Positions 217 to 8,789 of a stretch of 8,873 bases of DNA are shown here, in pieces. Within the stretch, counting starts at the first letter, position 1. Each line of letters starts with the position of its first letter. Below the pieces are notes generated by a model that was given only the letters and a program-made list of their open reading frames with translations, was not told the origin of the DNA and ran no database searches. This DNA is from Herminiimonas sp. (lineage in GTDB: Bacteria; Pseudomonadota; Gammaproteobacteria; Burkholderiales; Burkholderiaceae), in contig JACMQD010000196.1 in assembly GCA_014377155.1 (NCBI GenBank), positions 1 to 8,873 on the forward strand, given 5' to 3'. The translations under genes and the position numbers were made by a program.

Positions 217-2079
217 TCAGGCGGGTGGCGCCGGGACGCTACAAGCTAATTCGAGTGCGGTCACGTCGCCGGCGATGATTTGCCATGCGGCGGGGTAGCT
301 GCCGATCACGCCGTGTCCCCTAATAAACCTCGGCATCTCGCACTGCTTCTTTGAAATTGTCCAGGTCATGTCTGTCAGGGACTGCGGATGCGCGGCCAGC
401 AGATGGGCCTCGCCATCCTGGTGATCGAAACGCCAGGTCGTCAATTCACGCCGGCTCATGAATTGCGCCACCTCGGTCATCGTGTACCACTTGAATACCC
501 TGTTGCGCGCGAGCGATGCGGTGGTTTTCATCCAGGCTGTAACAGCACCGGCATAGAACCGCATACCCAGTGGATGACAGTAGATCAAGCGGATATTTTT
601 GGTATCGGCAGTAAAATTCGACACCTCGTCGAGCCAGCGAGCAATAGCCCGATGCGGAAGCCCGGAAAACATCGCCTCTTCGAACGACGCGATGCGACCG
701 AAGGGCGTAACCGGTATCGACCAGATCCGGCGGTCGACCGCGCCTTTGGCGTCGACCATGCGGGTAGCGCCGGTGCCGCCGTTGGCCGTGGTGTAATACG
801 CCACGACCTTTTGCTTGACTAGCCAGTCGGTCACCCAGTCCGGATGATTGCCATTCGGCGCGGCGTACTCGAGCAGCGGCTTGCCGAGGATGCGCCGCAT
901 GACGTCGTCGTTTTTGACCAGGTATTTGGTAAAACTGTCCTGATTGCGCTCGGTGACCTCTTTGCCGAAATGATTATGTATCCAGCCGCCGTGGTTGCCG
1001 ATGGCATGGCCTTTTGCTGCGAGCTCGCGAATCCAGGCCTGGGCCGATGGACTGCGTTCGGCATCCATGCCTTTTGCGTCGCCTTCCGTATCGACATCAG
1101 GACCGGCCGTGAAATGGATCGAGTACGGTCCCTGGTCGAGCGCGCCGATGGATTGCATGAAATTCAGGTTGGGGATCGCCGCACCGGAATCGACATGAAT
1201 ATTGAGCACCAAGCCACCGATTCCTTTCGGGGAGCTCAGCAAGCGGGGCAATGCCACCACGTCGTCGGAGAAATAGCGCAGGAACGCATGCAGTAATAAA
1301 CCATCGGTGCGGGTCTGCAACAAGCCCAATGGCACATTGACGAACAGGCTCTTACCGCTGCCGAAACTGTTCTCGATTGCTGCCACGCTGCCATTTGCGG
1401 CCATCAGCAGCACGTTGTCAGGGACGCCGGCGGCGGCGGTCATGAACAAGGGATATTCGAGCTTGTCGTAGTGATAGGTAGTAAGCCAGCGATCGACGAT
1501 GCGGCTGCCCTGCGGACGCGGATTTTCGGTGTTGAATCGGCCGGGAGTGATGCCCAGTTTGACCATGGCCGCTGCCGTGCCACCGATCGCATCGCGTGCC
1601 AGCGTCTGGTCGCCGTACTGCCGATAGAGGGCGTAATCGACGCCCGCCACATCCGATAGCCGCGACTTGCCAGGCGCATAGCTGCCTGCCAGGTCCAGTG
1701 TCAGCGCATCATGCACCAGCATCAGCGCGCCACCTTCATGCACATAGCGTTTGAGCTTGTCGATCAGCATGGCATTGCCGCGCCGGTGCACACTATCCGG
1801 AAGAATGATGCCGACATAGTTTTTCCGGGACAGCCCGAATGGTCGCAGAAATGCGCTGGCAGTCAAGGGTTCGAGCTTGATGCCCTCCTCCGATGCGGCC
1901 TGTATCCAGCCGGCGAACTCGGCGTCGTCGAGGGCATCCGGGACCAGCAATGCGATCGTGTGTTCTGCCGGTATGCGCAGTTCCGCACCGAGCAGCCAGG
2001 CCGAACAGCCCACCAGCGACGCCGCGCACACCAGCACGATCAGTCCAGTCAAAGACTTCATTTTCTTGACAGTTATCAT
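217..2079 (-). CDS. Lipoprotein with GATase-like and polysaccharide-deacetylase-like domains
   Basis: Predicted envelope lipoprotein of 620 residues. The N-terminus ends in the lipobox LVGC (lipidated Cys about residue 25); the following Ser suggests outer-membrane sorting. Residues about 37-271 look like a class I glutamine-amidotransferase-like fold (IALLVPDALDD, GGALMLVHD, SLFVNVPLG), as found beside deacetylase domains in some exopolysaccharide proteins. Residues about 285-540 look like a divergent NodB/CE4-type deacetylase: LNIHVDSG (D297), GNHGGWIHNHF (H363, H368, H370), AAPNG (P408) and YCHPLG (H502) lie where the usual metal-binding and catalytic motifs would be, but the usual TFDD and HSxxH forms are altered. 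It is probably a de-N-acetylase of the polymer made by this cluster; activity is not certain. The frame stays open upstream to 2166, but that stretch is 11-base tandem repeats. ATG 2079 or ATG 2061 (Cys at residue 19) is therefore more likely; neither has a clear ribosome-binding site. It is the last gene of the cluster, before earP. Confidence 0.75.
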   Translation of the reverse strand: MITVKKMKSLTGLIVLVCAASLVGCSAWLLGAELRIPAEHTIALLVPDALDDAEFAGWIQAASEEGIKLEPLTASAFLRPFGLSRKNYVGIILPDSVHRRGNAMLIDKLKRYVHEGGALMLVHDALTLDLAGSYAPGKSRLSDVAGVDYALYRQYGDQTLARDAIGGTAAAMVKLGITPGRFNTENPRPQGSRIVDRWLTTYHYDKLEYPLFMTAAAGVPDNVLLMAANGSVAAIENSFGSGKSLFVNVPLGLLQTRTDGLLLHAFLRYFSDDVVALPRLLSSPKGIGGLVLNIHVDSGAAIPNLNFMQSIGALDQGPYSIHFTAGPDVDTEGDAKGMDAERSPSAQAWIRELAAKGHAIGNHGGWIHNHFGKEVTERNQDSFTKYLVKNDDVMRRILGKPLLEYAAPNGNHPDWVTDWLVKQKVVAYYTTANGGTGATRMVDAKGAVDRRIWSIPVTPFGRIASFEEAMFSGLPHRAIARWLDEVSNFTADTKNIRLIYCHPLGMRFYAGAVTAWMKTTASLARNRVFKWYTMTEVAQFMSRRELTTWRFDHQDGEAHLLAAHPQSLTDMTWTISKKQCEMPRFIRGHGVIGSYPAAWQIIAGDVTALELACSVPAPPA

Positions 2080-2101
2080 TTTAGTCGTCGTCGTAACAGG
2101 T

Positions 2102-2156
2102 CGGCAGTAAGCAGGTAATAAGCACCCAATAAGTAGGCAGCGAGCAGGCAGCAAGC
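2102..2156. repeat. Five imperfect 11-base tandem repeats between two genes
   Basis: On the minus strand five consecutive 11-mers occur without gaps: GCTTGCTGCCT (2156-2146), GCTCGCTGCCT (2145-2135), ACTTATTGGGT (2134-2124), GCTTATTACCT (2123-2113) and GCTTACTGCCG (2112-2102). The consensus is about GCTTACTGCCT. The first two differ at one base, and the third is the most diverged. The array fills most of the gap between the membrane-protein stop (2186) and the deacetylase start (2079 or 2061). The period is close to one turn of DNA, so a regulator-binding array is possible, but slippage-derived sequence with no function is equally possible. Confidence 0.75.
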
Positions 2157-2185
2157 GGGCCGCCACTGCGAAACCGGCGTCATTG

Positions 2186-3016
2186 CTAAGCCGTTGCGCG
2201 GGCAGGCAACGTGCTCGCCGCCCAGGAATACAATGCGACGAAGATCAGCACATCGAACACGCCGCCGAAGCAGATCGTGAGAATCGGCATCAACAGCACC
2301 GAAAAATGGTGCAGCACCACCGCATGCAGCACGATTTGATGCGGGATCATCAGCACAAAGTAACCCAGGATCAGCATGGTATGCAGCACCTTGGTTGCGT
2401 AAGCCGCGTCAAGCAGGTAATACCCCAGCGTCAGCATGATCGGCACCGCCAGACTGACGCTGTAACCGACCTGGGCCAGGTCGTCCAGGTGATCGGCGAC
2501 GCCGTAAGGAAACTGCGACGGCATGATCAGAAAAAATAGCAGCGCCAGCATCTGTATGAAGCACAGGATCCGTATCAGATATCGGAGCGGCAGTCTTTGA
2601 TCGTCAAGGCGCGAGGAGAGCAAAAACACCATTGCGGTCAGTACGGCCGTGACAAGCCAGGCACCCTGCCCGGGCATGTCAAGCCGGCTGTCGGTGGCGA
2701 CCCAGTGCAGTCCCAGTAACGTGTCGCCGCTGCCATCGACAAGCGCTTCCAGTGGCAGGTCGAGAAGCACGGCCCAGTACAGAATGCAGTTGCGCCAGAA
2801 TGCCAGCAGCCAGGGGCCGGCCCAACCGATCGACAGGCAAAACGCCAATGGCAACAGCAGCGCCTGCACTAGGCGGCCGGGGTCGACCGCCATGCTGCGC
2901 AGCGAGCGGTGCGCAGGCGCTTTGCCGTGGCGCTGTTTGGCACGCTCCAGTGACGACGACGCCACCCTAAACGCGTGTTCGCGCACGGCGTCGGAATCGG
3001 CAGCATCCTTCAACAT
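2186..3016 (-). CDS. Multi-pass inner-membrane protein of unknown family
   Basis: I do not recognise the family. The 276-residue protein has a charged N-terminal tail of about 45 residues (probably cytoplasmic) and then about six hydrophobic segments: roughly 49-73, 118-134, 148-166, 184-203, 208-233 and 237-266. Between the first and second lies an amphipathic stretch (about 80-117) containing LDLPLEALVDGSGDTLLGLH. Another loop (167-182) contains FPYGVADHLDDL. Histidines cluster near the fifth segment (H226, H231, H236, H237), which may hint at a metal or catalytic site; no known motif was matched. The start at ATG 3016 is supported by GAGGTG (3025-3020) overlapping the upstream stop, and lies 7 bases after the YaiO-like gene. 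Position between the barrel and the deacetylase suggests a role in polymer modification (for example substituent transfer) or secretion, but this is only inferred from neighbours. Confidence 0.72.
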   Translation of the reverse strand: MLKDAADSDAVREHAFRVASSSLERAKQRHGKAPAHRSLRSMAVDPGRLVQALLLPLAFCLSIGWAGPWLLAFWRNCILYWAVLLDLPLEALVDGSGDTLLGLHWVATDSRLDMPGQGAWLVTAVLTAMVFLLSSRLDDQRLPLRYLIRILCFIQMLALLFFLIMPSQFPYGVADHLDDLAQVGYSVSLAVPIMLTLGYYLLDAAYATKVLHTMLILGYFVLMIPHQIVLHAVVLHHFSVLLMPILTICFGGVFDVLIFVALYSWAASTLPARATA

Positions 3017-3019
3017 AGG

Positions 3020-3025
3020 CACCTC
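3020..3025 (-). promoter_or_regulatory. Ribosome-binding site overlapping the upstream stop codon
   Basis: GAGGTG read on the minus strand overlaps the TGA stop of the beta-barrel gene (3026-3024) and lies just before the ATG at 3016; the GAGG core is five bases away. It decides the start of the multi-pass membrane protein against longer readings into the barrel gene, and suggests translational coupling. Confidence 0.65.
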
Positions 3026-3851
3026 ATTCGAACTGGCGAAAGACACCAAGGTTGACCCCGCTGCGTTCGTACGAAGGATTGCGATAATGATTCAGGTCGG
3101 CCAAAAAGCCGGTGCGGGAATCGATCCAATGGCGCCATCCGAGACTGATTTCCTTGCTTTGAAAATCGACTAGGGCTGTATTTTCGGCAATCGTCAAATA
3201 GCCCTCGCCGCCCCATCCGTAGCGCACCGAGAACAGATCCTGACGGTCACGCCCGTACGTGGCTGCCAGGAATTGCTGATGCGTCACGACCGCGCCTGGC
3301 GTACTGCGGTTGTAGCGCACGCCACCTTCGACCACGAGTGGCTGGTCGAAATAGTAAGCGGCGGACAAGCCCAGACCATGATCGGCATGACCGTCGGGTG
3401 CCTTGTAATACCCCAAGCCCAGCGACGTCACCAGATTTTGTCGGGCGAACCATTTCTTGTTGAGCGTAGCGTCGAGGCGATAGCGTGGCAAGTAAAAGGC
3501 GCCGTTGCCCGCGCCAGCGCCGGCGCTGGCATACCACTGCGGCGAGATCGTGAACGTATCGGCGACGCCGACAAAATTCCCTGCTTCGCCGAATTCTTTT
3601 TTCGCTGACAGTTCGCCCTGCAACACATGGTCTCCGGTGGCGTAGGTGCCGCGCACGGTCACATTTCGCCAGCCAGCGTAGCCAGCGGTCAGTGTCTGGC
3701 CGCCAGCACTGAGTTCGATACTGCGCGCCAATTTTAGCGAAAGCGTCTCTGGTGGTTTTTGAGGGTTCTGTTCGCCGTTTGCAGACCATGAAAAAAGAGC
3801 CACCGACAGAAATAAAAAGAAATTGCGAAGGCTGGCTGTTCGTGTTGACAT
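3024..3851 (-). CDS. YaiO-like outer-membrane beta-barrel protein
   Basis: Predicted exported outer-membrane protein, 275 residues when started at ATG 3851. That start gives a normal signal peptide (hydrophobic FFLFLSVALFSWSA, cleavage about residue 24-27). The mature part has no long hydrophobic helix. It is rich in alternating aromatic, small and polar strands such as NVTVRGTYATGDHVLQGELS and FLADLNHYRN, separated by Gly/Asn turns, and ends in the aromatic strand VNLGVFRQFE. Length and pattern fit the YaiO family of outer-membrane barrels (E. coli YaiO is about 260 residues), which sits beside a family 2 glycosyltransferase in E. coli. The likely role is a pore for the polysaccharide. There is no TPR region like that of PgaA or BcsC. 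The frame also opens at ATG 3932, which overlaps the wecB stop as ATGA. That start would put about 37 residues before the hydrophobic core, but the overlap fits the coupling seen elsewhere here, so it cannot be excluded. Confidence 0.78.
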   Translation of the reverse strand: MSTRTASLRNFFLFLSVALFSWSANGEQNPQKPPETLSLKLARSIELSAGGQTLTAGYAGWRNVTVRGTYATGDHVLQGELSAKKEFGEAGNFVGVADTFTISPQWYASAGAGAGNGAFYLPRYRLDATLNKKWFARQNLVTSLGLGYYKAPDGHADHGLGLSAAYYFDQPLVVEGGVRYNRSTPGAVVTHQQFLAATYGRDRQDLFSVRYGWGGEGYLTIAENTALVDFQSKEISLGWRHWIDSRTGFLADLNHYRNPSYERSGVNLGVFRQFE

Positions 3852-3928
3852 GTCGGGTTCTCGCACAGGGAATTCGGTGGCCAGCGATGCACGCCGCCAG
3901 GCGGTTTTCTTCAGGACGATGCTCGGCA

Positions 3929-5134
3929 TCATGCGGCCCGCCGCTCTGCCAGAGAATCAGCGCCAGACCAGACACCGTCCTTGTACTGCGCGCTGGAGAT
4001 GACGTCGGCAATGCGCGTGCCAGATTGGCCGTCGCCGAACGGGCTCACGGCGAGTTGCATGCTGCGGTAAAGCCTGGCATCGCCAAGCAATCGGTCGATC
4101 GCCTGCGTCATGGTTGTCAGATCGGTGCCGACCAGCGTTGCACCGCCGGCCTGGACCAGCTCCTGGCGTTCGGTGCTGGTTCGCGCGATCAGGACCGGTT
4201 TGGCGAAGGCGGACGCTTCTTCCTGGATGCCGCCGGAATCTGTCAGCGTGAAGTCGCATTGCATCAGCAGTCGGATCATAGTTTGATAACCTACCGGCGG
4301 CAATAAGCAAATGCGTGCCCGAACCGCCGGCGAAAGTAGTGCAACCTCGCTTTCCACATCGGATCGTACCGCGGCATTCGGATGAACTGGCCAGACCACG
4401 CACGTATCGCCGTGACGCGCCAGCATGGCACCGACCGCTCTGGCAATATTGCGTATCGGCTGGCCCCAGTTTTCGCGGCGATGGGCGGTTACGAGAATCA
4501 GCCGACGGCTGGCTACCGCGGCCAGGAATGGCGACAGCACGGACGGCATCATCTCATCCGGATTGTCGGTGGCGAGCAAAATGCGTTCACGCGTCCACAG
4601 GGCCGCGTCGATGACGGTATTACCGACTTCGAAAATACGTGCCGCATGAATATCTTCGCCGAGCAGGTTTTGCCGCGCTTGGCGGGTTGGAGAAAAATTC
4701 CAATGCGCCAGTCGTCCGATGATCTCGCGGTTTTTTTCTTCAGGAAACGGCTCGCGTTCGAACGTGCGCAATCCCGCTTCGATATGGGCGACCGGTTTGT
4801 CGTGGTAATAGCCGATCATCGCACCTGCCAGGGCCGAGGTGGTGTCGCCCTGCACCAGCATGATGTCGGGATCGAGCGCGCGCAGCCCTTCATCGACACC
4901 TTCGAGCAGTGCCGATGTCAAATGCGCGAGCGATGATGATTTGCGTTTGAGGTCGATGGTGTAGTCGGGCCGCATATCGAAAAAATCATATAGTTCGTCC
5001 GCAACGGCGCCGTGTTGCCCGGTATGCAGGATCAGCGAGCGGTGCCCTTGCCGAAGCAGCGCTTTGTGCACCGGCGCCATCTTGATGATTTCGGGACGGG
5101 TTCCGATGCAGGTCAAACAGGTTTTCGTTTTCAT
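3929..5134 (-). CDS. wecB: UDP-N-acetylglucosamine 2-epimerase (non-hydrolysing)
   Basis: Cytoplasmic GT-B-fold enzyme that interconverts UDP-GlcNAc and UDP-ManNAc. The 401-residue protein carries the family signatures in order: GTRPEIIK (11-18), HTGQH (37-41), VQGDTTS (D97), HIEAGLRT (E119), PEEKNR (E133), VTAHRREN (H218) and DSGGIQEE near residue 300. These include the acidic and histidine residues needed for catalysis in E. coli WecB, so the enzyme should be active. It is about 25 residues longer than the E. coli enzyme, mainly at the C-terminus. The start is ATG 5134, preceded by AAGAGG six bases upstream; an in-frame TTG at 5140 is less likely. No UDP-ManNAc dehydrogenase (wecC) is present in the window, so the product may be used as ManNAc itself rather than oxidised. 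Its place inside the cluster suggests that it supplies the glycosyltransferase with UDP-ManNAc. Confidence 0.95.
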   Translation of the reverse strand: MKTKTCLTCIGTRPEIIKMAPVHKALLRQGHRSLILHTGQHGAVADELYDFFDMRPDYTIDLKRKSSSLAHLTSALLEGVDEGLRALDPDIMLVQGDTTSALAGAMIGYYHDKPVAHIEAGLRTFEREPFPEEKNREIIGRLAHWNFSPTRQARQNLLGEDIHAARIFEVGNTVIDAALWTRERILLATDNPDEMMPSVLSPFLAAVASRRLILVTAHRRENWGQPIRNIARAVGAMLARHGDTCVVWPVHPNAAVRSDVESEVALLSPAVRARICLLPPVGYQTMIRLLMQCDFTLTDSGGIQEEASAFAKPVLIARTSTERQELVQAGGATLVGTDLTTMTQAIDRLLGDARLYRSMQLAVSPFGDGQSGTRIADVISSAQYKDGVWSGADSLAERRAA

Positions 5135-5140
5135 GTACAA

Positions 5141-5146
5141 CCTCTT
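5141..5146 (-). promoter_or_regulatory. Ribosome-binding site of wecB
   Basis: AAGAGG on the minus strand ends six bases before ATG 5134. It selects this ATG over the TTG two codons upstream and is the clearest ribosome-binding site attached to a certain gene in the window. Confidence 0.75.
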
Positions 5147-5169
5147 GTAAATTGCTGGGGGTGTTTGGC

Positions 5170-5191
5170 ACCTGTCCTGGTCTGAACAGGT
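5170..5191 (-). promoter_or_regulatory. Inverted repeat in the wecB leader
   Basis: On the minus strand ACCTGTTC (5191-5184) and GGACAGGT (5177-5170) form an 8-pair stem with one G-T pair and a 6-base loop, 35 bases before the wecB start codon. It lies in the 114-base gap between the exported-protein gene and wecB, the largest gap inside the cluster. It could be an operator, an mRNA leader stem or a processing site. It is not followed by a T-tract on the minus strand, so it is not a terminator by itself. Confidence 0.4.
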
Positions 5192-5195
5192 CCTT

Positions 5196-5230
5196 AAAAA
5201 AATGCGGCTCGTTATAGCTGTTCGGCCTGC
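5196..5230 (-). terminator. Possible weak terminator before wecB
   Basis: After the stop codon at 5251-5249 the minus strand reads a GC-rich stretch, with GCAGGC (about 5230-5225) able to pair imperfectly with GCCGC (about 5208-5204), followed by seven T (5202-5196). The stem is short, carries a bulge and has a large loop, so at best this is a partial terminator that reduces read-through from the first three genes into wecB. Confidence 0.25.
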
Positions 5231-5248
5231 GACTGCGCCGTCGACCGG

Positions 5249-6232
5249 TCAGCCACACGGCTCTTCCGGTGCTGCCATACGCACATTCTTTTGTTGGAGG
5301 ATCTGACTCGCGACCTCGTCGGTGACCGTCCAGTGCACACTGTGACGATATTTGGCCGTCTCGCGCAGCCAGCAGCGCGCCGATGCCAAGTCACGCTGGC
5401 GCAGCGCGACAACGGCGACCAGACCCCACGCAAAATCGTCGTGCACCTGGCTTAGCCACAGACGCCGATGCTCGGTCATCCACCTTTTGTAATAACTCGC
5501 CGCATCAGTCGACAGCAGAGAAAAATCCACGAAGAGTGGGAAAATCTGTGCGACATGTTCGGGATAGAAAGTGTGCGCGAGACGCTGCTGTTCGGGCTGG
5601 GTGGAGACAAGAAAGCGTTGCTGGCCGTCGTCCCAGAACACGGCGCGAATCGATTCCGCGAGTTTGCCCGCGCTATTGGTTTTGCGGCCGACCTGGCGCG
5701 CCGGCTTCCACGACCACACTTCGAGGTTATCCATGAACAAGCCGTGCTGATATACCGGGGAAACGAGGTAAATGCCACGCTTGTCGCGCAGGCGTCGCAA
5801 CGCGGCGCCACTCATCTGATAACTCTGTCGCCACGCCGGTTTGTCTTGTAACCTGGCTGGCATCGTGTCGAGAAATTTCAACCACAACGCCAGCAGTGCA
5901 TCGTCAGCGTCGGCGGTCTTGCAAGGCGCCCACACCGGACCTACCCGGCAAAAACGGTCGAACGTCGCGTCGGGCTTTTGCCGCGCCATCACCCATTCGG
6001 CCCATTTTTCGGCATGCGACGAAATATCGAGACCGTTTTCGTGCGCCAGCAACAGCGCCTGCAAAGCGAAATACGGATCGACCGTGTCGCCACGGTGCAG
6101 GATCGAAATCGCACCGCCGTCATCTACATAGCCTGCCAGCGACAACACAGCCGGCGCAGCGTTCGCAAGCGCGGCCGCGCCGGCAAGCCACACCAGCCCC
6201 AGCATTGCAAGAAAACCAGATAGTCGGTTCAT
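5249..6232 (-). CDS. Exported helical protein, possible six-hairpin glycosidase-like
   Basis: Predicted periplasmic protein of 327 residues with a signal peptide (MNRLSGFLAMLGLVWLAGAA, then ALANA, cleavage about residue 25). The start at ATG 6232 overlaps the previous stop as ATGA. The mature protein is mainly amphipathic helices with short loops rich in Asp, Trp and aromatics: DPYFALQALLLAHENGLD (52-69), KTADADDALLALWLKFLD (105-122), YQHGLFMDNLEVW (161-173), FYPEHVAQIFPLF (222-234) and VHDDFAWGLVAVVAL (263-277). This spacing resembles (alpha/alpha)6-toroid carbohydrate enzymes such as GH8 and related lyases, but I could not match a catalytic motif. Possible acid residues are D107/D109/D110, D168, E171, D265 and D266. 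C95 and C104 could form a disulfide. It may trim or release the polymer or bind the synthase on the periplasmic side. The family assignment is weak; export is well supported. Confidence 0.7.
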   Translation of the reverse strand: MNRLSGFLAMLGLVWLAGAAALANAAPAVLSLAGYVDDGGAISILHRGDTVDPYFALQALLLAHENGLDISSHAEKWAEWVMARQKPDATFDRFCRVGPVWAPCKTADADDALLALWLKFLDTMPARLQDKPAWRQSYQMSGAALRRLRDKRGIYLVSPVYQHGLFMDNLEVWSWKPARQVGRKTNSAGKLAESIRAVFWDDGQQRFLVSTQPEQQRLAHTFYPEHVAQIFPLFVDFSLLSTDAASYYKRWMTEHRRLWLSQVHDDFAWGLVAVVALRQRDLASARCWLRETAKYRHSVHWTVTDEVASQILQQKNVRMAAPEEPCG

Positions 6233-7263
6233 GATGACCACACCGTACCGACGTCGCGCGCCCATACCGTTCCATGGGCGATGACCCCTGCCTCGACGAT
6301 GATGGCTTCCGCGCTGATGGTGGAAGGCTGGTCGATCGTGCCGATCTCGGCGCCCGTGCCGATGATGACCTTCTGCTCCGAAATGACGACCCCGCCAACG
6401 CGCGCGCGATGAAACAATTTGATGTCGCCTTCGCTGACCACGGACCCGGTGACGATCGACTCGCTACCGAGGCTGAGACCCTTTCTGGCTTTGATATCGC
6501 CTTCTACGATGGTGTAGGCGCCAACGACCAGGTGGCCGGTCACGATCAGCGATCCGGCAAAGCGGCGGTGGCGTGGCAGCACGCAGTTTCCTTGCACCAT
6601 GAACAGGCTGTCGCTACGTCGGATGGCGCCCGGCACCGACTCGAAGCTGTGCAGTACACCGTCCGTGTGACCGCGGGAAGCGGTCCCTCGGTAAGCAGCG
6701 CCGAAGTAAATGGTCGGCGCATGAAGCCGCTCGAAACAGCAGCGGTTCTTGAGCTCGATAGCGAGCGCCGACGAAACCCGCCGCAATGCCACGCACGAGA
6801 CACCGAGCGTGAGCCAGCCTTCGGCGTGTGCCCATTCACGCAATTCCGAATGCGGACCCAGATGCACATGGCCAGCGGCGAACAGTCCCGAGAATGTGTC
6901 ATGGCCAATGCTGTGCAGGTCGGCGTTGACATACAGGGGCACCGCACACTTGACGGAGCGCTGCAGCCGCAGCGCATGGAAGGCGATCAGCGGCCTCGTC
7001 GCTTTCTCCCAGTCCATCCGTTCTGCATGCATTGGCACCGGTTCGAACAAGCCAGTACATGCTTCCGGGCTGGCAGCCAGCGACGACAGAATTTCGTGTC
7101 GAAACGCTTCCGCGAAATGGCCGGTATGGCGGGTGTAGCATTTCGAAACCGGCAACGGCTGGCAATCGGTGGGCATGCGCCACTCCCGATAGGCCGGCCG
7201 GAATGCGATCACCATGAATGCAACGCAGACGCTGAAAAACCCACTATAGGCTACGATAATCAC
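6229..7263 (-). CDS. Membrane-anchored bactofilin-like beta-helix protein
   Basis: 344-residue protein starting at GTG 7263, which overlaps the glycosyltransferase stop as GTGA; a longer reading to 7308 would lie inside the glycosyltransferase gene. Residues about 2-21 (AYSGFFSVCVAFMVIAF) form one membrane segment without charges before it and with FRPAYREWR after it, so the rest is probably cytoplasmic by the positive-inside rule. Residues about 235-335 are short repeated turns with regularly spaced Gly, Val and Ile (GSLIVTGHLVVGAYTIVEGD, VTGSVVSEGDIKLF, VVISEQKVIIGTGAEIGTI), the pattern of bactofilins (DUF583), which form cytoskeletal filaments from a beta-helix core. A second, less regular stretch at about 120-190 may be a further helix. 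Bactofilins are known to localise wall or polysaccharide enzymes in other bacteria. Coupling to the synthase suggests a scaffold for it; this is inference. A hexapeptide-type acyltransferase fold is the alternative, but no catalytic His motif was seen. Confidence 0.75.
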   Translation of the reverse strand: MIIVAYSGFFSVCVAFMVIAFRPAYREWRMPTDCQPLPVSKCYTRHTGHFAEAFRHEILSSLAASPEACTGLFEPVPMHAERMDWEKATRPLIAFHALRLQRSVKCAVPLYVNADLHSIGHDTFSGLFAAGHVHLGPHSELREWAHAEGWLTLGVSCVALRRVSSALAIELKNRCCFERLHAPTIYFGAAYRGTASRGHTDGVLHSFESVPGAIRRSDSLFMVQGNCVLPRHRRFAGSLIVTGHLVVGAYTIVEGDIKARKGLSLGSESIVTGSVVSEGDIKLFHRARVGGVVISEQKVIIGTGAEIGTIDQPSTISAEAIIVEAGVIAHGTVWARDVGTVWSS

Positions 7264-8789
7264 GGCAGGGCCGCTGCAGGTTTGCGGTAGCGGATGGTTT
7301 TGTCCCACGCGATGTCGCGTCGCAAAAGCCGGTCGACCATCAGGCTGGCAACCGCGCGCGTGATCGAGAAGACGCTGACCGTGAAGCCCAGGAGATTGAA
7401 CGGCAGCAGCCGAATTCGGTTGCGGTTACCATCGAGCAGGACGGCAATCACGATCTGAAAAAAGGCTGCGAAGTTACCCATGGCGCCATAGGCGATCAGT
7501 GCGAAGACTGGGATCAGGCTGGCAAGCATGGCGCCGCCATTGACAAAATACAGCACGATGGCCAGCAACCAGCCGACAATCAGCAAGGGCGGGATAACGA
7601 AGACGAATAGCAGCAACAGGCCATCGATACGCTCGCGCAGGGTCAGATACGGACTGGTCGCAAACGCCAGCCAGTAGCGCATCAGCACCTGGTTATGTCC
7701 TTTGGCCCAGCGCTTGATCTGCTTGATGCGCGTGGCCCAGTCCTGCGGCACCTCCTCGTAGCATTCGGCGCGATTGGTGTAGACCGTCTTCCAGCCATTG
7801 AGGATCAGACGATAAGTAATATCGGTATCTTCGGCAAGCATATCGTCATGCCAGCCACCCACGGCAGCGACGGCTGAAATGCGTACGCCGCCGACCGTGC
7901 CGCCGTACTGTGGTACCAGCCGCAAGTTCATGCGCGCCTGCTGGTCGACCTGGTAGCCGCCCGAACGTTCGAGATCGAGAAGGCGGGTCAGCAGATTGGC
8001 GCCGGCGTTCATCGGTACCACGCGACCCATCACGGCACCCACCTCCGGATCGAAGAACGGTGCCACCAGTTGCTTGAGCAAGCCCTGGCCAGGTACGTAA
8101 TCGGCGTCGAAGACGATCACGATGTCGCCTTCGGCAAACGCCAGCGCATCCTTGAGTGCGGCAGACTTGCCAGCCTTTCCCTCACTGCGGTGAAACGGAA
8201 ACAGGCGCTGCGGAAATTGCCCGGCATAGTGCTCGATGATTTTGCGCGTGCCGTCGGATGAACGATCGTTGACCGGAATGATCTTCAATCGGTCGGCCGG
8301 ATAATCGCTATCGAGCAAAGCCTCGATACAACCGGCGATGACCTGATCTTCGTTGTGCGCGGCGATCAGTACGGTAATCAGCGGCCATTGCGCGGTGTCG
8401 ATGTCGATATAAGGATGGCGTTGTGTTCCGTACAGGCGGCTGATCGTGAAAACGAAATGCCGTATGCCGTAGACCATCATGATCAGTACGATCAGAAACA
8501 GGCTGGCGGTCGCCGCCGTGATCAAGGGCGACTGACTGGAGCCGGCCGCAATACGAGAAGTGCGCGCTGTCATCACCGATTTTGGTTGGTCCGGCACTTC
8601 TTGCGTGATATGCGGCGACAACGTAGTCGTCATCTTCAGCGGCAAAAACGACTGCACCTTGAGCGGGCGGACACCGTGCTCGTGCGACCGTATCACAGGA
8701 CCGGGCAGGTCGGCGCGTGCAATTTTCTCCGTTGGCTGCGCACCTGCGGGTGCTGCAAGCACTGCCCAGGCAAACGATACGCCCAACAT
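7260..8789 (-). CDS. Processive family 2 glycosyltransferase, polysaccharide synthase
   Basis: Inner-membrane synthase that should polymerise a nucleotide-sugar and pass the chain through the membrane, like PgaC, HasA or NfrB. From ATG 8789 it is 509 residues. One membrane segment lies at about 88-108. The GT-A domain (about 137-362) carries AHNE (144-147), NDRSSDGT (174-181), DADY (228-231, nucleotide/metal DxD), LAEDTDI (318-324, catalytic Asp region) and QIKRW (357-361, the QxxRW motif of processive enzymes). Further membrane segments lie at about 388-416, 421-452 and 461-485. No PilZ or other c-di-GMP domain is visible. Residues 1-18 resemble a signal peptide (VSFAWAVLAAPAGAQ), followed by about 70 linker residues that would be periplasmic. 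The start is uncertain: the frame is open to the right edge, with no ATG, GTG or TTG upstream inside the window, and the best ribosome-binding site nearby points to an out-of-frame ATG. Acceptor and donor sugars are not readable; UDP-ManNAc or UDP-GlcNAc is suggested by wecB. Confidence 0.9.
   Translation of the reverse strand: MLGVSFAWAVLAAPAGAQPTEKIARADLPGPVIRSHEHGVRPLKVQSFLPLKMTTTLSPHITQEVPDQPKSVMTARTSRIAAGSSQSPLITAATASLFLIVLIMMVYGIRHFVFTISRLYGTQRHPYIDIDTAQWPLITVLIAAHNEDQVIAGCIEALLDSDYPADRLKIIPVNDRSSDGTRKIIEHYAGQFPQRLFPFHRSEGKAGKSAALKDALAFAEGDIVIVFDADYVPGQGLLKQLVAPFFDPEVGAVMGRVVPMNAGANLLTRLLDLERSGGYQVDQQARMNLRLVPQYGGTVGGVRISAVAAVGGWHDDMLAEDTDITYRLILNGWKTVYTNRAECYEEVPQDWATRIKQIKRWAKGHNQVLMRYWLAFATSPYLTLRERIDGLLLLFVFVIPPLLIVGWLLAIVLYFVNGGAMLASLIPVFALIAYGAMGNFAAFFQIVIAVLLDGNRNRIRLLPFNLLGFTVSVFSITRAVASLMVDRLLRRDIAWDKTIRYRKPAAALP

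Follow-up and report, generated by a model that had tools for sequence, protein, structure and literature searches.

The seven-gene cluster

The stretch of DNA analysed here (the window) comprises 8,873 nucleotides of contig JACMQD010000196.1 from a Herminiimonas sp. (assembly GCA_014377155.1), and between positions 217 and 8789 it carries seven consecutive genes that are predicted to form a synthase-dependent exopolysaccharide system. In the list of open reading frames (ORFs) and their translations, all seven lie on the minus strand and read from 8789 to 217, as the initial annotation had it. The first product, P1 (7260..8789), is a predicted processive GT2 polysaccharide synthase, with PgaC as a relative and BcsA as a more distant one. 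It is followed by P2 (6229..7263), a bactofilin-family protein with one N-terminal transmembrane helix; P3 (5249..6232), a secreted (alpha/alpha)6-barrel and candidate glycan-cleaving enzyme; P4 (3929..5134), a WecB-type non-hydrolysing 2-epimerase of UDP-N-acetylglucosamine (UDP-GlcNAc); P5 (3024..3932), a YaiO-family outer-membrane β-barrel; P6 (2186..3016), a multi-pass inner-membrane protein of no known family; and P7 (217..2079), a lipoprotein in which a separate N-terminal domain precedes a CE4-like deacetylase domain.

The junctions between the genes are as first described. On the coding strand, genes 1 and 2 meet in GTGA and genes 2 and 3 in ATGA, both being four-base overlaps in which the downstream start codon (GTG at 7263 and ATG at 6232, respectively) overlaps the stop codon of the gene before it. 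Genes 4 and 5 meet in ATGATG, where an overlap is possible if P5 starts at the ATG at 3932; by eye, there is also an in-frame methionine further on, ahead of a stretch resembling a signal peptide. Genes 5 and 6 are joined by TGAGGTGCCTATG, in which the stop codon lies inside a Shine-Dalgarno-like stretch. Relatives and overlaps suggest that P2 starts at GTG 7263, P3 at ATG 6232 and P6 at ATG 3016, and P7 is likely to start at ATG 2079 or 2061; judged from the relatives, these four proteins appear to be shorter than their longest ORFs, which are open to 7308, 6265, 3049 and 2166, respectively. P4 starts at TTG 5140 or ATG 5134, and the true start of P1 is uncertain because the alignment of 18 of 20 relatives begins only at residue 60 or beyond.

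Conservation of the gene set

The GT2 was used to search genome_contigs (84,980 species), a search that reaches close relatives only. It gave 88 candidate stretches, which yielded 20 loci (L001-L020, in which the GT2 is therefore present by construction). Thirteen are betaproteobacterial, from Undibacterium, Acidovorax, Aquitalea, Xenophilus, Chromobacterium and metagenome-assembled genomes (MAGs) of Pandoraea and Burkholderiales, and seven come from MAGs labelled as acidobacterial (L012 and L015-L020). Profiles of the seven families were used to scan 37 loci, these being the seven acidobacterial loci and 30 betaproteobacterial ones (the 13 and a further 17). The profiles were built partly from the same loci, and that for P6 includes the acidobacterial rows L018 and L020. 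The P7 alignment (A7) holds 26 of the 30 P7 rows and the window protein, leaving out L011, L014 and both pieces from L053; alignment A4 consists of 44 of at least 120 matches, seven loci and the window protein.

The GT2 and the bactofilin are adjacent and co-directional in all 37 loci. Among the 30 betaproteobacterial loci, WecB and P6 are each found in 29, YaiO in 28, P3 in 23 (matches weaker than 1e-15 being counted as absent) and P7 in 19, and the missing WecB, YaiO and P6 are confined to two short contigs, L056 (5.4 kb) and L063 (3.8 kb). Every one of the 30 has P3, P7 or both; all seven genes are present in 12, and all matched genes lie on one strand in 24. Some of these loci are not independent of one another: L045 and L056 share 99.5% identity over 5.4 kb, and L049 and L053 share 93.9% over 15.8 kb.

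Gene order varies. L051 has exactly the order of the window, GT2-P2-P3-WecB-YaiO-P6-P7 on one strand, and L001-L003 and L045 have the same order minus P7. Two other arrangements recur, WecB-GT2-P2-P3-P7-YaiO-P6 in eight loci (L007-L011, L013, L014 and L060) and GT2-P2-P7-WecB-YaiO-P6 in seven (L046-L049, L052, L053 and L055). In three rearranged Acidovorax loci (L004-L006), GT2-P2-P6 share one strand, whereas WecB, P3 and YaiO are encoded on the opposite one, a split that fits an inner-membrane synthase group and a supply and export group. The cluster is modular, P3 and P7 being its variable parts. Some of the genes are split over two frames or ORFs, namely the GT2 in L014 and L076, YaiO in L017 and one P7 in L053, through either mutation or sequencing error.

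Searches with single families other than the GT2 recover the same set. P6 alone gave 14 matches in 200 genomes of the Acidovorax family, with the GT2 and bactofilin in the same region in all 14 and both WecB and YaiO in 13, the exception being a 3.8-kb contig; a P3 search of 200 such genomes gave eight matches, all among these 14. P3 alone gave seven matches in 300 genomes of the order, with GT2, bactofilin and WecB in all seven and YaiO and P6 in six, the exception here being a 5.4-kb contig. Two of the 14 (G003 and G004) and one of the seven (G002) had already been met by the GT2 search, G243 occurs in both samples, and G374, one of the eight P3-positive genomes of the Acidovorax family, rests on a match weaker than 1e-15. 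More widely, a search of 398 Pseudomonadota with P6 gave four matches, none of them new to the Burkholderiales searches, and a search of 150 genomes of the order to which a Chromobacterium belongs gave another four, of which G016, G025 and G112 recur from the 300-genome P3 search. Five of 247 Acidobacteriota also have a P6 match: the four with E below 1e-10 (L015, from genome G867, and L075-L077) carry P6-GT2-bactofilin-YaiO in that order, while the fifth (E 9.9e-4), which lacks the other genes, is probably a chance match. Because the genome surveys did not score every candidate in a genome, absences in them are soft. The system is therefore patchy across two phyla, with a core of P6, GT2, bactofilin and YaiO.

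L012, labelled Candidatus Acidiferrales, has a WecB-GT2-P2 run, and its GT2 is 59% identical to that of the window, compared to 44-46% for the remaining acidobacterial loci; mis-binning or transfer may explain this.

Given these conservation counts, the gene set is more than chance. The neighbourhood search finds related sets in both Betaproteobacteria and Acidobacteriota, and the cluster is therefore a real unit, as the initial annotation had proposed from the gene junctions.

The bactofilin and the membrane protein P6

Taken alone, P2 scores 19.3 bits against the Pfam bactofilin family PF04519, under the cut-off of 27.9. The family is clearer than the single protein: every one of the 36 sequences in the P2 family alignment has a PF04519 match at E ≤ 0.1, the best being 1e-9, and 35 of the 36 have a transmembrane segment above threshold, so that its description as a bactofilin-like membrane protein holds. 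Lysine and arginine are more numerous after this segment than before it in 34 of the 36, and the reverse is found in none, from which the solenoid body of P2 is predicted to be probably cytoplasmic. In one survey, about 3.2% of bactofilins are transmembrane-anchored, and in Caulobacter a bactofilin recruits PbpC, its client synthase (PMC12448750). In Gluconacetobacter, an unidentified cytoplasmic belt has been proposed to keep the cellulose synthases in line (PMC7811197). On balance, the gene pairing and the family membership favour a role for P2 as a scaffold for the synthase.

The constant pairing of bactofilin and synthase would also suit a locus whose product, instead of being released as a biofilm polymer, is a cell-bound or developmental envelope glycan, such as a sheath or coat, with the bactofilin determining its site. 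The Pfam and NCBIfam scans of the seven proteins revealed no anchoring function, and we consider such a product unlikely. A second possibility concerns P2 itself, which could be a left-handed-helix acyltransferase that acylates the sugar and not a cytoskeletal scaffold. It would account for the weak hexapeptide-type matches in the P2 family (PF00132 in 6 of 36 members and PF25084 in 7 of 36), for the weak LpxA-type matches of P2 in the PDB, and for the annotation as an acyltransferase of E. coli yaiX, which has a comparable position. However, the bactofilin match extends to the whole family, and no histidine is found among the invariant or 90%-conserved columns of P2, where left-handed-helix acyltransferases need one. 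The P2 profile also gave no convincing match to the one yaiX fragment compared, making an acyltransferase quite improbable.

P6 has no Pfam match at E ≤ 1 and none in NCBIfam. Its AlphaFold2 model (mean pLDDT 85.7) consists mostly of long helices, and comparison with folds in the PDB gave no significant match, in agreement with its initial description as an unknown multi-pass membrane protein. The family is present in Burkholderiales and Acidobacteriota, and P6 thus represents a conserved membrane family for which no known relative was found.

The periplasmic proteins P3 and P7

P3 has no Pfam match at E ≤ 1 and only chance-level rows in NCBIfam (best E 0.14). The fold predicted for it is an (alpha/alpha)6-barrel, as in the glycanases BcsZ and PssZ, which refines the earlier description of an exported helical protein; Foldseek matches it to BcsZ (9b87) with E 4.4e-4 and a TM-score of 0.51, and to PssZ (6r2m), of the same fold class, with E 6.6e-3. 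Residues D119, D122, D179 and E182 are invariant in alignment A9, and D63 is nearly so. It is likely that P3 cleaves the polymer chain. Weak P3-like paralogues are found near P6 in L004-L006, L048, L049, L052 and L055, and a second P3 in L051.

P7 was initially described as a deacetylase-like lipoprotein. It has a lipobox, LVGC, at residues 51-54, and scores 26.2 bits against the polysaccharide deacetylase family PF01522, just above the cut-off of 23.1; 19 of the 27 members of the P7 family match PF01522 at E ≤ 0.1. Four histidines (H324, H392, H397 and H531) are invariant in the 27 sequences and D326 is at least 90% conserved, a set that would suit a metal-dependent deacetylase. We regard de-N-acetylation of the chain as the likely role of P7. 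In being large and multi-domain it resembles the Agd3-type deacetylases (CE18), which also occur in uncharacterised bacterial operons (PMC7229062), but the motif spacing of Agd3 differs from that of P7, and no Agd3 chain is among the PDB sequence matches of P7 up to E 10. A second P7-like gene lies beside the cluster in L046-L049, L051-L053 and L055, and a third in L047.

Predicted sugar supply and export

P4 scores 361.3 bits against the WecB model TIGR00236 (cut-off 210.15) and matches PDB entry 1vgv with E 4.1e-82, which bears out the presence of WecB in the gene set. Enzymes of the non-hydrolysing WecB type make UDP-N-acetylmannosamine (UDP-ManNAc). The 30 betaproteobacterial loci and the window (31 sequences) were also searched by tblastn (E 1e-4) with single E. 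coli queries, by which distant relatives could be missed. No WecC was found in any of the 31, which argues against N-acetylmannosaminuronic acid (ManNAcA). A GlmM gene stands between WecB and P3 in L004-L006 (TIGR01455, 509-513 bits, cut-off 447.55) and a GlmS gene adjoins the cluster of L002 (TIGR01135, 796 bits, cut-off 418.05); both lead to UDP-GlcNAc, the substrate of WecB, and they are counted in favour of an exopolysaccharide system.

Other polymers have been connected with the same sugar. E. coli NfrB has been proposed to use UDP-ManNAc together with WecB (PMC8669469, PMC8669472), and a Listeria exopolysaccharide, for which PssZ is the hydrolase, contains ManNAc (PMC7479077, PMC6307706). 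For the present system there is about an even chance that ManNAc is the building block.

P5 is above the cut-off of both YaiO-type models, with 188.9 bits against TIGR04390 (cut-off 32) and 114.8 bits against PF19413, as expected for the YaiO-like barrel reported initially.

The synthase and comparison with known systems

P1 matches PF13641 (E 2.9e-30) and PF00535, and contains the motifs FDADY at 227, AED at 319 and QIKRW at 357. The residues of DxD, ED and QxxRW are invariant in the 21-sequence GT2 alignment A8, and the protein is, as first described, a processive GT2 with QxxRW. The CelA model gives it 68.9 bits (cut-off 699.1), and no PilZ match is listed in the Pfam and NCBIfam scans.

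The nearest characterised synthase family is that of the poly-N-acetylglucosamine (PNAG) system PgaABCD, which has the same logic of deacetylase, barrel and synthase. The cluster could therefore be a divergent Pga-like system, in which the GT2 corresponds to PgaC, P7 stands in for PgaB and YaiO for PgaA, and WecB serves another pathway. In support of this we note that PgaC_IcaA is the best NCBIfam match of P1, that P1 and E. coli PgaC share 32% identity over 237 amino acids, that among four E. coli synthases PgaC receives the highest score from the GT2 family profile (139.1 bits), and that P7 matches a polysaccharide deacetylase family. However, the PgaC_IcaA match, at 132.7 bits, is far under its cut-off of 422.3; PgaA and PgaD are unmatched in the 31 sequences, and the P7 profile does not match PgaB (hhalign probability 0.22). 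The bactofilin is a further addition, and WecB lies within the locus in all betaproteobacterial cases except one short contig. A PNAG system is thus very unlikely.

The E. coli NfrA-NfrB-YbcH system with WecB (NGR), whose product has been proposed to be a ManNAc polymer (PMC8669469, PMC8669472), has a GT2 with QxxRW, an outer-membrane barrel, WecB dependence and a periplasmic accessory protein, and nfrB has been reported next to wecB in organisms that have no other wecB (PMC8669469). An Nfr-type ManNAc system with swapped parts is nevertheless improbable, given that NfrA (a 16-stranded barrel with a TPR part) and YbcH (a DUF4434 protein) are unmatched in the 31 sequences, that P1 lacks a match to the cyclic di-GMP-binding, MshE-related (MshEN-type) domain that NfrB has, that the E. 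coli nfr region has no profile match to the bactofilin, P3, P6 or P7, and that NfrB obtains only 21.2 bits with the GT2 family profile, compared to the far higher value for PgaC, scores which suggest that the family lies outside the NfrB clade.

The other comparisons are more distant. Cellulose synthesis (BcsABZC) shares the (alpha/alpha)6 fold of BcsZ with P3, but BcsB, BcsC and BcsZ have no match in any of the 31 sequences. The Listeria Pss system makes a ManNAc-containing polymer and its PssZ (GH126, first called GH8) is in the fold class of P3, but it is Gram-positive and hence has no outer-membrane exit. The E. coli yaiO-yaiX-yaiP-yaiS region, to which the cluster had been likened, shares the YaiO family model, and its GT2 adjoins the gene annotated as an acyltransferase. 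That likeness stands for the YaiO model and for generic GT2 similarity, YaiP aligning over 218 amino acids only (28%), but not for YaiS, which is unmatched in the 31 sequences; the region also has no profile match to WecB, P2, P3, P6 or P7, making it a weaker analogue than Nfr. WecB itself is found by the same tblastn search in 30 of the 31. The statement that the cluster matches no standard system gene for gene thus holds for Pga and Bcs, for which, as for Nfr, the comparison fails at the defining parts. For Alg and Pel, the family scans list no Alg or Pel family for the seven proteins, no direct comparison having been made. None of the open-licence PMC papers listed by the searches describes the cluster, subscription papers and preprints being outside the search.

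Interpretation

The seven genes are, with reasonable confidence, one synthase-dependent exopolysaccharide system outside the standard list. Gene content, families, the predicted P3 fold and the conserved unit support this initial proposal, and the making and export of a polymer are deduced from families and neighbourhood; on that basis the product is very probably a secreted polysaccharide. WecB would convert UDP-GlcNAc to UDP-ManNAc, and the GT2, with P6 as its membrane partner, would polymerise the sugar and move the chain through the inner membrane. The anchored bactofilin, encoded directly after the synthase, would gather or position the synthases from the cytoplasm. Within the periplasm, P7 would partly de-N-acetylate the chain and the (alpha/alpha)6-barrel P3 would trim it, and the chain would leave through the YaiO barrel, its predicted route of export.

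Several observations weigh against this reading. The presumed modifying enzymes are not constant, P7 being absent from 11 of the 30 betaproteobacterial loci and P3 from 7, and a P7 homologue lies outside any cluster in L061, another contig of the L003 genome, whose cluster has no P7. For P3, no sequence-level match to any glycoside hydrolase (GH8 and GH126 included) was found; the (alpha/alpha)6 fold is common to many other enzymes, non-hydrolases among them, and D277 is not invariant. The motifs of P7 are not canonical for CE4: the first is HVD where CE4 has DD, and H-x4-H replaces the H-x3-H described for the family (PMC7229062). On the export side, no TPR family match was found among the seven proteins in Pfam and NCBIfam, so that the YaiO barrel lacks a TPR part; one family model covers both P5 and E. 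coli YaiO, yet direct comparison yields no alignment, and a search with the P5 profile does not recover E. coli YaiO at E 1. Finally, WecB is absent from six of the seven acidobacterial loci of the scan (the seventh, L012, is a cut contig) and from L075-L077, and the sugar may therefore differ there, or the epimerase may come from elsewhere.

Neighbouring genes

Four loci have members of a further family beside the cluster (L046:8212-9195, L047:9388-10659, L049:13655-14941, and L053:9623-10876 and 13245-14531). For the L046 copy NCBIfam gives no match, and neither it nor the L047 copy matches Pfam. Four acidobacterial loci share a gene that lies downstream of YaiO (L015:13225-14274, with relatives in L017-L019); the L015 copy encodes a legume-lectin domain and a PEP-CTERM signal, and this protein perhaps binds the exported polymer. 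A gene for a Crp-family regulator is near the cluster in L001-L006, its Crp-like domain having been checked in L003. Three genes no more than a few kb from the cluster (L001:6994-9081, L003:6218-8833 and L002:18832-19809), two of the GGDEF-EAL type and one of the GGDEF type, are a possible link to cyclic di-GMP.

Significance

A 2020 operon survey counts five synthase-dependent exopolysaccharides, namely cellulose, acetylated cellulose, PNAG, alginate and Pel (PMC7112194); the proposal of NGR followed in 2021. The present system, conserved in Burkholderiales and Acidobacteriota and without a name, would extend this list, and the P3 and P7 families would be candidate enzymes for a little-studied polymer. 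More speculatively, the polymerase may be built into a bactofilin scaffold, a filament that sets the site on the cell at which poly-ManNAc or a related polymer is extruded, which would be a separate class of Gram-negative machine. We put this forward as a tentative and rather doubtful extension. If it is true, the bactofilin does the ordering job that is otherwise done by TPR proteins, or by the unidentified cytoplasmic belt of the cellulose-ribbon makers.

The cluster is real, conserved and apparently undescribed, with a predicted function in exopolysaccharide synthesis and the fixed pair of synthase and bactofilin as its notable trait. The constancy of this pair, a synthase with a transmembrane-anchored bactofilin, makes testable the question of whether bacterial cytoskeletal filaments place polymer synthases.

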